A stretch of 58,668 bases of DNA from Propionibacteriaceae bacterium (lineage in GTDB: Bacteria > Actinomycetota > Actinomycetes > Propionibacteriales > Propionibacteriaceae): positions 1 through 58,668 of the forward strand of contig JAUNKV010000016.1 in the NCBI GenBank assembly GCA_030532575.1. Direction: 5' to 3'. The translations under genes and the position numbers were made by a program. The notes below the pieces were generated by a model. The model was not told the DNA's origin, ran no database searches, and saw only the letters and a program-made list of their open reading frames with translations. This document shows positions 3,868 to 37,781 of the stretch, in pieces (position 1 is the first letter of the stretch; each line of letters opens with the position of its first letter).

Positions 3868-3933
3868 CGGTATTTTCTGCCATTCTTGGGCCACACGGGG
3901 CCTCCCCGGCACGAAGAATGGCAGAAAACACCG
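3868..3933. repeat. 66-bp palindromic element, copy 1
   Basis: Perfect 15-base arms (TTTTCTGCCATTCTT, 3873-3887, and its complement, 3914-3928) extend outward to CGGT/ACCG with one mismatch. A second element of the same total length and the same arms lies at 43401-43466, with a different loop. The right arm ends about 11 bases before the ATG of the next gene. It could be a REP-like or small mobile element, or a hairpin in the 5' leader. Confidence 0.8.
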
Positions 3934-3944
3934 GAAGGCAGCGG

Positions 3945-5013
3945 ATGAACACGGAGTGGACGCAGCAGGTCAGCGCCTTGGCCGAGGAGGAACAGCGGCG
4001 ATCCCACTGCCCGCAGGTCGAGGCCGAGCATCTGCTGCTTGCGATGCTCCACCTCGACGACGCGGTGGGTGATGCGCTACGACAGCAGGGAGTCAGCCTC
4101 GAGGTCGCTCGACAGGCCTGTGAGCACGTCCACCCCGTCGAAGAGAAAGAGGCAGGAACACCGGGCGAGACCAGATTTCGGGAAGGGGTCCAGGCCACCC
4201 TGGAGCGAGCCGCCAACCAACCACTCCCCGATGTCGCCCTGCTCCAGCTCCTGCTCCAGGACCCATCCGAGCGGACCACGAAGGTGCTGCAGGAGCTTCG
4301 CATCGCCTACGAGAACCTGCGCCTGCCCACCCAGAAGAAGCTTCCCCCCCCCGACTTGCAGATCACCCACCAGAGCGTCGTACCAGCCCCGTCCAAGGCA
4401 GTGTGGGCCGTGGTCTCCGACCCCTCCCGCCTGCACGAGTGGGCAAGCTTCGTCTTCGATCACTGCGAGCTGGACCCGACGGGTGTGCCGATCACCTGGA
4501 GCGATCCCGGCACCAAACGCCACGGGCTGCTCACCGTCGTCACGGACGGCAGCAGGAGCGAGAACCTGATCCTTGTCGAGAGACCGTTGAAAGAGCTGCG
4601 CTGGGACATCGTGGAGCCGGAGAACCGCACGACACCCCCGGCCGCCTGCGTGTCACCCTCGAACCTCACGAACAGGGAACCAACCTGACCCTGACGCTGG
4701 AGCTCACCGATTTCGACGAATCCGAACTGCCGACGAACTTCGCCTTCCGCAAGATCTTGCTTCCCGTCGGGATGTGGTACGTGCGCCGGGTGGTGACCAA
4801 GAGGGTGCGCGGTGAGGTGGGGTCGTCACGAGGATCGTCATGGTGGGCACCTGGCAAGGGATGCGACGAAGATCGCACTGGAGCGTGCGTTCGAGGAGGA
4901 CAACGCAGCCAGGGGGTCACCAGGGCGACCGCAGTAGATTCCGCCCTCACCGCGCACCCTCCAAGTTCCTGAAGACCTTCGCCACCGATATCGCCCGGGC
5001 TGCTCAATCCTGA
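3945..5013 (+). pseudogene. Clp_N-SRPBCC fusion, frameshifted and interrupted by a MITE
   Basis: Residues 1 to about 130 form a Clp repeat (N) domain (VEAEHLLLAMLHLDD, then ALLQLLLQDP) without any AAA+ ATPase. An SRPBCC/START-like domain follows (QITHQSVVPAPSKAVWAVV). The start at 3945 has GGAAGG six bases upstream. The frame is lost at a run of five C (4635-4639). One extra C would continue it as PPGRLRVTLEPHEQ and on to WYVRRVVTK. The gene is then cut by a 161-bp mobile element at 4801-4961. Removing that element plus one CAA target copy joins VVTK directly to FLKTFATDIARAAQS and a stop at 5011-5013. The gene was therefore intact before the insertion. The C-run change could also be a sequencing error. 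Confidence 0.85.
4801..4961 (+). mobile_element. MITE copy 1 (161 bp), target duplication CAA
   Basis: Terminal inverted repeats are perfect over 17 bases (GAGGGTGCGCGGTGAGG at the left end, its complement at the right). CAA lies on both sides (4798-4800 and 4962-4964). The interior is the same as in the copies at 36555 and 56315. It keeps a short frame ending RGSPGRPQ and TAG close to the right end, which looks like the tail of a deleted transposase. It lies inside the Clp_N-SRPBCC gene. Confidence 0.92.
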
Positions 5014-36525: not shown

Positions 36526-36554
36526 AACGGCCCCAGCGGAGAGGGACGGACTCA

Positions 36555-36714
36555 GAGGGTGCGCGGTGAGGTGGGGTCGTCACGAGGATCGTCATGGTGG
36601 GCACTTGGCAAGGTAGTACGACGAAGATCGCACTGGGGGTGCGTTCGAGGAGTTCAACGCAGTCAGGGGGTCACCAGGGCGACCGCAGTAGATTCCGCCT
36701 ATTCGCGGACCCTC
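36555..36714 (+). mobile_element. MITE copy 2 (160 bp), target duplication TCA
   Basis: Same element and orientation as copy 1. Left end GAGGGTGCGCGG, right end CGCGGACCCTC. TCA lies at 36552-36554 and 36715-36717. The right-hand TCA is the complement of the TGA stop codon of the next gene, so the insertion fell exactly at that stop and left the protein whole. The internal frame has lost one base relative to the other copies. Confidence 0.92.
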
Positions 36715-37206
36715 TCAGTGGTCCTGAGGCTGCTCCGGCTCCTCGGGCTGCGGCTGTTCCCCGGGCTTCGGCTGCGGATCGTCCTGGGAGGTGCGACCCA
36801 CCACGTCGCGGCCCTTCTCGCTCAGCTCACGGAAGCCCCGGTTGATCTCCTCGACGAACTTGTTCAGGTGCACCCCCAGCTGCTCGACGAACTGTCGCGC
36901 CCCGGGGGCGTCGCTGTCCGGATGGGTCCTGGCGTACTCGGCCTTCTGCTCGTCGTAGAACGCCCGGGCCTTCTCACCCACCAGCCCCGCGAATCCCGCG
37001 ATCGCATAGCCCGCATCGGCGACGAACCTCGCCGCCTCCTCGCCGAAGGGCTTGCGCTCCTCCTCCACCCCGGGCGCTGCGTGCGGCTCGATCACCTCAC
37101 CATCGACGGTCTCCGCCGCCTGCTCCGCCTCCTCACCGAAGACCTGCTCGGCGTGGACCTCGTCCTGGCCGGGCTGCTGCGTGTCGTCGTGGTTCCAGTC
37201 GTTCAT
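36715..37206 (-). CDS. Acidic protein of unknown function
   Basis: 163 residues, hydrophilic and strongly acidic, ending in a Pro/Gln/Glu tail (QPKPGEQPQPEEPEQPQDH). The middle (FVADAGYAIAGFAGLVGEKA, then FVEQLGVHLNKFVEEINRGF) is helical and amphipathic. No known domain. ATG 37206 has GGGAGG before it. Its stop codon is also the target duplication of MITE copy 2. Confidence 0.65.
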   Translation of the reverse strand: MNDWNHDDTQQPGQDEVHAEQVFGEEAEQAAETVDGEVIEPHAAPGVEEERKPFGEEAARFVADAGYAIAGFAGLVGEKARAFYDEQKAEYARTHPDSDAPGARQFVEQLGVHLNKFVEEINRGFRELSEKGRDVVGRTSQDDPQPKPGEQPQPEEPEQPQDH

Positions 37207-37301
37207 GTTTCCTCCCTCAGGGTCGCAACTCCTCCAGTGTGCTCCCACCCCGAGGCGACAAAAGCGGGACTTCCCCTGAGTCTTCCCTGGGTTTTCGCAG
37301 C

Positions 37302-37781
37302 TCAACGGGAGAGGGCGACGGCCTCAGCCACCAGCTCGCCGTCCCGGTACGGCATCACCGCGTGGAACGGACGCGGATCATCGTCCAGCACCAGCGGCAC
37401 GAAGTACCGGTCCCCCTCCCACATCGGCAGCTCCATCATCTGCTCGATCAGCACCCAGGCCAGCGGGCCGTCGTCGTTGCGCTCCGGCGGGTCACCGTCG
37501 AAGTCATCAATCACGAACACCAGCCCGAACCAGTCCGCCCCATCCGAGCCGAACCCCGGCCAGGAGATCGTGCCACGCAGTGTGGCCGAACGCACTGTGA
37601 TCCCGGCCTCCTCCATCAGCTCCCGCCTCAGGCAGGTCAGCACGTCCTCGTCCGGCTCCAGCTTCCCGCCCAGCCCGTTCCACTTGCCCTGGTGGTCGTC
37701 GCCGTCGCGGCTGCGGTGCACCAGCAGTACCTTCCCGCCCCGCCGCACATAGCCGAGCACCCCGACCACGGAGCGGATCAT
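37302..37781 (-). CDS. Nudix hydrolase (MutT-like)
   Basis: 159 residues. The Nudix box is complete: GGKLEPDEDVLTCLRRELME followed by EAG. The N-terminus (SVVGVLGYVRRGGKVLLVHR) and the 8-oxo-dGTP-type GKWNGLGGK segment suggest a nucleotide-cleansing diphosphatase, but Nudix substrates cannot be assigned by eye. One base separates its ATG from the ilvE stop, so it is co-transcribed with ilvE. Confidence 0.9.
   Translation of the reverse strand: MIRSVVGVLGYVRRGGKVLLVHRSRDGDDHQGKWNGLGGKLEPDEDVLTCLRRELMEEAGITVRSATLRGTISWPGFGSDGADWFGLVFVIDDFDGDPPERNDDGPLAWVLIEQMMELPMWEGDRYFVPLVLDDDPRPFHAVMPYRDGELVAEAVALSR

Follow-up and report, generated by a model that had tools for sequence, protein, structure and literature searches.

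A MITE family of Arachnia with a conserved hairpin core that recurs with other ends across Actinomycetota

The window analysed in this study, by which we mean the whole stretch of 58,668 nucleotides, is contig C34 of a draft genome of the genus Arachnia (Propionibacteriales, Actinomycetes, Actinomycetota) that comprises 3.19 Mb in 75 contigs and is referred to here as G000. Inverted ends and 3-bp flanking duplications delimit three elements of 160-161 bp in the window, none of which has a transposase gene. Their features are as follows, L096 being the insertion sequence (IS) discussed below.

4798..4800, no strand: left target duplication CAA of copy 1 (flank comparison)
4801..4961, + strand: MITE copy 1, 161 bp (157 bits with covariance model R2)
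4801..4817, + strand: left terminal inverted repeat of copy 1, GAGGGTGCGCGGTGAGG (15/17 bases identical to the end of IS L096)
4853..4910, + strand: conserved apical hairpin core of copy 1, from GGCAAGG to AACGCAGCC
4945..4961, - strand: right terminal inverted repeat of copy 1 (complementary to its left counterpart at 17/17 positions)
4962..4964, no strand: right target duplication CAA of copy 1 (flank comparison)
36552..36554, no strand: left target duplication TCA of copy 2
36555..36714, + strand: MITE copy 2, 160 bp (144 bits with model R2)
36607..36664, + strand: apical core of copy 2
36715..36717, no strand: right target duplication TCA of copy 2
56312..56314, no strand: left target duplication TTA of copy 3
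56315..56474, - strand: MITE copy 3, 160 bp, in the orientation opposite to copies 1 and 2 (168.5 bits with model R2)
56365..56422, - strand: apical core of copy 3
56475..56477, no strand: right target duplication TTA of copy 3

An earlier, sequence-only reading of the window had placed three copies at these coordinates, between perfect CAA/CAA, TCA/TCA and TTA/TTA duplications, and both the coordinates and the flanks were found as it described. The inverted ends that it quoted are indeed present in all three copies, but the right end of copy 2, GAGGGTCCGCG, has one mismatch within the quoted 11-mer. Over 17 bp the left and right arms match at 17/17 positions in copy 1, 13/17 in copy 2 and 16/17 in copy 3. 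With at most one mismatch, GAGGGTGCGCG occurs 14 times in the window against 5.3 occurrences expected, and a count of 14 was reached in 0/100 shuffles.

Copy 1 is inserted in a gene that encodes Clp_N and polyketide cyclase-like domains (Pfam), within its 3′ part. The comparison of empty sites suggested in the earlier reading was made for copy 1, in the relative G034, taken as Arachnia propionica OH887_COT-365, whose sequence aligns ungapped with the two flanks of copy 1 joined at one CAA (82% identity, query 3-407). The interrupted gene (window 3918-4972) changes frame before position 4688 and then enters the MITE, and it therefore looks broken twice, by the frame change and by copy 1. The right TCA duplication of copy 2 is the stop codon (TGA) of a minus-strand ORF at 36715-37305, and copy 3 has an ORF without a Pfam match on one side and an MFS transporter ORF on the other.

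That the family would prove numerous in the genome was also proposed in the earlier reading, and a genome-wide search for further copies bore this out, as a profile search to which places found by end motif were added yielded at least 41 full and 4 partial copies. A first search, in which 40 of 106 candidates were scored, gave 41 matches, namely 40 copies and one reverse-strand match within a copy, and the covariance model gives 62 matches, some of which are a single palindromic copy counted on both strands. Perfect 3-bp duplications flank 21/41 full copies (9 TAA, 8 TTA, 2 CAA, 1 TGA and 1 TCA), two of the three bases are alike in 14/41 and one in 6/41; in a control that paired left and right flanks of different copies, 17% were perfect. 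All three copies in the window have perfect duplications, whereas genome-wide only about half do. A C precedes the duplication in 27/41 copies and a G follows it in 22/41, giving a target of the form C-TNA-G. In G023, a second Arachnia genome, perfect 3-bp duplications were found in 23/43 copies.

The copies within one genome are strongly mosaic. Every copy sequence is distinct, 41/41 in G000 and 44/44 in G023, and among the G000 copies the four-gamete test is failed by 227 of the 253 pairs of two-allele sites, with r2 values of 0.03-0.04 between sites more than 10 bp apart. When variation was reduced to eight variable blocks, a count that took in 36/41 copies of G000 and 40/44 of G023, all 36 representatives from G000 differed in their combination of blocks, and three pairs of blocks were linked (p < 0.02). 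In alignment A1, which holds 81 of the 91 full Arachnia copies after near-identical ones were omitted at 0.975 similarity, the G000 copies are almost entirely patchworks of a small number of block variants, and within a single copy the two arms often fail to match each other. Shared multi-base blocks argue for exchange between copies over repeated mutation, and gene conversion or template switching is a possible route of such exchange. Two further arrangements were noted. On contig C45 of G000 (L016, about 1480-1500) an intact copy adjoins a truncated MITE end across a TAA, as though a new copy had landed next to an earlier one that has since been deleted. A decayed copy with imperfect ends has similar flanks in L201 (G002) and L202 (G004) and is probably a single old inherited insertion.

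A candidate for the source of the ends was found when IS5-type transposases were searched for with PF13340 in 39 Arachnia genomes and the ends of 30 loci were examined by script. IS L096, in genome G023 (taken as Arachnia propionica OH2822_COT-296), is 961 bp long (positions 603-1563), has inverted ends GAGGGTGCGCGGATAGG that match at 17/17 positions, and is flanked by TAA on both sides. Its transposase is a single open ORF of 283 aa that scores 158.9 bits with NF033580 (cut-off 110), 56.7 bits with PF01609 (cut-off 23) and 34.0 bits with PF13340, just under the cut-off of 34.3, and by these profile matches it is an IS5-family transposase. The IS5-type assignment that had been drawn from GAG ends and 3-bp TNA duplications is thus supported by an actual IS with such ends. 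Compared with the L096 end, the six ends of the window copies have 15, 15, 15, 15, 16 and 17 of 17 bases alike, the identical one being the right end of copy 3, and one MITE copy of G023 equals the L096 end at 20/20 positions. The likeness stops there: MITE and L096 are alike over the terminal 17-20 bp only, with no similarity further in, and at six IS loci the hairpin model scored at most 14.7 bits. The earlier reading had taken a short frame ending RGSPGRPQ near one end of the element for the tail of a deleted transposase and had proposed a search for a full IS with the same ends and that peptide. An IS with such ends exists in G023 (15-17 of 17 bases), but its transposase ends in TRPTRRP and none was found in the MITE's own genome. 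The peptide's frame is not conserved among relatives, and the interior proved to be a conserved hairpin. An origin of the interior from a deleted transposase was therefore rejected, as the interior is not homologous to the IS and the hairpin model finds nothing above that low score at the six IS loci.

No L096-type transposase was found in the draft of G000, where the best matches are 39% identical and belong to a different IS of 913 bp, present in two copies, with ends GAGGTGGTTTC and TAA or TTA duplications. Because the matches reach only this level and come from a different IS, the MITE family may be stranded in its own genome, or its transposase may have been missed in the draft assembly. 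One copy of the 913-bp element (L072, G000:C66, 1287-2366) directly adjoins a MITE copy, with one TTA common to both; two overlapping ORFs (137 and 138 aa) make up its transposase, an arrangement like that of programmed frameshifting, and the second copy, in L071, has TAA. A further IS5-type element of G000 (L099, contig C31, 1346-2358) has a CTAG duplication and the ends GTCGTGTTTCG / GTCGTGTTACG.

The Arachnia covariance model has matches, including copies with other ends, in 13 of the 39 Arachnia genomes, and the five genomes that have an L096-type IS or pieces of one at 61% identity or more, a cut of our own choosing (G023, G030, G032, G011 and G034), all lie among these 13 (P = 0.002); if a broken 43-aa piece in G006 is added (49% identity, in a genome without the hairpin), 5 of 6 IS genomes have the hairpin. 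In G023, in G011 (IS GAGATTCCGCAGGTAGG) and in G032 (IS GAGATTGCACGGATAGG, one end only, the other lying at a contig end), the ends of the MITE are similar to those of the IS in that genome. This agreement is broken by G030, where the IS has GAGATCGC[AG]CGGATAGG and the MITE copies have TGTCCTGCG[CT]CAG with CTAG.

Copy 1 is predicted to fold over its full length into one hairpin, at -95.9 kcal/mol (z -7.7) against -80.7 (z -6.2) for the opposite strand. Of the 43 pairs predicted in the 81 Arachnia copies, from which the Arachnia covariance model was built, 17 vary at both partners, as do 37 of 41 pairs in alignment A2, whose 31 rows, like the 47 rows of alignment A3 that are spread over the phylum, were picked by hand for spread. 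Rfam 15, searched with 3 + 16 loci up to E = 1, gave no credible family: the 2 + 3 matches did not reach the gathering score and lay elsewhere than the element.

With the A2 model the core was found in 121/293 genomes and 13/37 genera of the order (E <= 1e-4), in 65/394 genomes and 24/138 genera of the class (E <= 1e-5), and in 15/396 genomes of a phylum sample, 11 of which belong to other classes. No more than 7 to 10 candidates were scored in each genome, which makes the copy numbers lower bounds, and a covariance model that includes the paired ends favours matches having them. The 59 extracted sequences have, with substitutions, apical strands GGCAAGGCSGAGGAGGRAG and GACGASAACGC and variable inverted ends, and many of them have middle arms like CCGTCGCGAGCG / GGCGCGCAGCAGG. 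Plasmid p1 of Streptomyces angustmyceticus carries an element of 74.1 bits. An element of 210 bp (L280, G573:C42:95327-95536) has about 50 extra apical bases, which by eye look like a further hairpin. Carriage by phages was considered and set aside: one element compared with 50,697 phage records gave no match, and two viral contigs with a core-like 19-mer had no match to model R2. Outside Arachnia, 4 of 55 stretches gave matches (two from Nannocystis and one each from Aquabacterium and Sandarakinorhabdus); these were put down to chance, since the profile found no element there.

A structure model of this kind could in principle pick up any long GC-rich hairpin, and the phylum-wide matches would then be an artefact. 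The E-values are rough because of short model calibration; the best match in the window that is not a copy reaches 24 bits (E 0.0016), inside an ORF, and matches of 33 and 38 bits occur in 400 kb of two carrier genomes. Such an artefact is nevertheless very improbable. Both apical motifs fit a simple pattern in 46 of the 47 A3 sequences, the listed matches that were extracted from the phylum sample score at least 44.6 bits, the end duplications were counted independently of the model, and most genomes have no match at threshold (172/293, 329/394 and 381/396).

In A3, standard pairs fill 87.0% of the pair cells against 59.6% after shuffling, 437 cells are changed on both sides against 155, and covariation reaches a score of 0.694, which falls to 0.216 on shuffling and to 0.116-0.172 when partners are slid. 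The comparison with slid versions favours the structure, which was itself derived from this alignment. For 47/47 A3 sequences (means -107.8 and -86.2), and likewise for the 91 full copies from Arachnia, the more stable fold is that of the + strand; the A3 consensus fold is -28.8 against -9.0 on the opposite strand. DNA energies prefer the same strand, again in 47/47, by a smaller difference. One strand test was dropped because, with G-U pairing forbidden, the union retained 23 pairs and many of these did not belong to the hairpin; strand-symmetric counts took its place. These give 268 G-U against 149 A-C opposites in A3, with a G-U excess in 36/47 sequences and an A-C excess in 5/47, and 583 purine-purine against 108 pyrimidine-pyrimidine opposites, with a purine-purine excess in 47/47; as the A3 sequences are related to each other, none of these counts represents independent trials. 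In the Arachnia set alone, G-U and A-C are equal among the fixed mismatches (5 each), and among segregating columns with three or more copies there are 25 G-U and 12 A-C.

Could the core instead be a small protein-coding gene that includes the RGSPGRPQ frame? By eye, some copies have an open frame whose last residues ahead of a stop are RGSPGRPQ or GVAQ. Relatives do not keep the frame, however: the spacing of the two best-conserved motifs is spread over the three phases as 15, 15 and 16 sequences (46/47, one lacking the second motif), and in 11 of the 47 sequences no frame is open throughout. A peptide-coding core was rejected on this ground, and we regard a coding function as scarcely credible. 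The interior is a conserved long-hairpin module and not a transposase remnant.

These observations also bear on the account that we are dealing with an ordinary MITE, in which internal deletion of an IS5-type element left a neutral interior. The ends, size, duplications and copy number all fit this account, as does the existence of L096. It would, however, have to accommodate both the restriction of IS likeness to the extreme ends and the low hairpin scores at the six IS loci, and a neutral interior would not be expected to retain its pairing and its core across a phylum, which makes the account improbable.

A more serious alternative dispenses with RNA and has the palindrome maintained as DNA, either through cruciform or single-strand folding during transposition or replication or through quasi-palindrome template switching, in which one arm serves to correct the other. 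Compensatory changes can arise by quasi-palindrome template switching, and the strand preferred by DNA folding is the same one. The copies are also inserted in both orientations relative to genes: with a home-made gene caller, and with 38 and 39 copies having enough flank, orientation to the neighbouring genes was balanced in G023 (11 vs 10) and reversed in G000 (5 vs 20). A benefit to the host through + strand transcripts, which we had considered, is unsupported by these orientations. In six genomes with a DnaA motif at a contig start (G065, G421, G225, G647, G417 and G004), 23 of 28 copies, among those listed, have the + strand in one replication orientation, a post hoc count. The motif was absent from the first 2.6 kb in 14 of 20 genomes, and 20 stretches did not place the origin in G290 and G462. 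Template switching would be expected to perfect the arms, yet purine-purine mismatches and the apical core persist phylum-wide, and the outer arms within one copy are often unmatched. We consider a purely DNA-level explanation rather unlikely. We infer that the core is selected as a folded strand, and RNA is more likely than DNA in this role because the loops are purine-rich and G-U opposites exceed A-C phylum-wide.

The ends of the element are variable where the core is not. Two duplication classes can be distinguished, GAG ends with TNA and other ends with CTAG. Copies in G011 mostly have GAG[AG]T[TC]CCGC..GTAGG, with perfect TTA, TAA or ATA duplications in 10 of the 20 fetched, and those of G032 have GAG or CAG ends. 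In G030, G018 and G008 the ends are TGTCCTGCG[CT]CAG or GTGTTTCGTGTCAG, and CTAG stands on both sides of 7 of the 8 distinct fetched copies with TGTCCTGCG/GTGTTTCGTGTCAG-type ends. In a set of three genomes from a single genus, 8/19 fetched copies lie between two CTAG sequences, most of them with ends GG[TC]GTGTCTCCC. On a tree of the core (A3 columns 27-150, arms excluded), the distinction between GAG/GTG and other ends, assigned by eye from the terminal letters, requires 7 changes against 15.8 for shuffled labels; bootstrap trees give 6-8, and at least 3 are forced by well-supported branches. A 3-bp duplication flanks 10 of the 23 GAG/GTG rows (5 TAA, 2 TTA and 1 each CAA, ATA and TTC), and CTAG is found on both sides in 8 of the 24 other rows. 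Among 17 PF13340 loci of G426 and G462, 4 of which received full end searches, no IS had the ends of the CTAG-type elements within two mismatches; the nearest, in one of the three genomes just mentioned, has GGAGTGTCTGACGGAT with CTAG, similar but not identical to the MITE end GGTGTGTCTCCCAAAT. It appears that ends have been exchanged, either by recombination (with IS ends or between copies) or by template switching, and the strong mosaicism of the G000 copies lends indirect support to this.

Taken together, the results suggest that these are probably non-autonomous elements moved in trans by an IS5-family transposase, and that their interior is a conserved hairpin module with exchangeable ends. 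The transposase would recognise the inverted ends of the MITE, act on them in trans, and duplicate the TNA inside its C-TNA-G target. The hairpin module recurs across Actinomycetota in MITE-like elements whose end type differs by genome and, on the tree of the core, has changed repeatedly; new IS ends would be picked up by recombination or template switching. The + strand hairpin would act as a folded RNA or a folded single DNA strand, and its most likely contribution, as we read the conservation, is to help the element persist or be copied. Tentatively, one may go further and regard the structured hairpin, as RNA or DNA strand, as a selfish unit that gains the ends of active IS transposases, switches between IS systems and reshuffles its copies by template switching; this we hold to be possible without favouring it. 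If it is true, a single mobile structured module lives off several transposition systems throughout the phylum. MITEs are usually regarded as dead leftovers of IS elements. Here the folded core outlives its ends across the phylum, which makes the core, and not the IS, look like the unit that lasts, in what would be a concrete case of end exchange between transposition systems. The structured element, several copies of which are present in many of the sampled actinobacterial genomes, is apparently undescribed: in the open-access literature searched, we found no description of a core common to several genera with exchanged ends.

GAG ends and TNA duplications are features of the IS1031 group of the IS5 family, and L096, with its 961 bp and its IS5-family transposase, is like that group in both respects; as the name is based on ends and duplications, it denotes a resemblance of the MITE/L096 system. 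Unlike a derivative of an IS1031-like IS, the MITE has just 17-20 terminal bp in common with it, and the same core also occurs in elements with CTAG duplications and other ends. Among small repeats, the Correia/NEMIS elements of Neisseria and the ERIC elements of enterobacteria share with the present MITE a small size, inverted ends and transcripts predicted as long stem-loops, and Correia transcripts are reported to be RNase III substrates; the parts of these accounts consulted describe no cross-genus core with different ends (PMC10969869, PMC2229807). The RUP element of pneumococcus is, like the present MITE, attributed to an IS transposase through similar ends, although its partner is the resident IS630-Spn1, and such a core is unmentioned in the sections consulted (PMC2229807). 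QMITE2 of Coxiella burnetii is similar in its predicted full-length folded transcript but differs in its duplications of 7-9 bp, and the portion of the source consulted makes no mention of a cross-genus core (PMC10969869). Set beside these systems, the element described here is a MITE by the features tested, yet one whose conserved structured module is not bound to a single IS.
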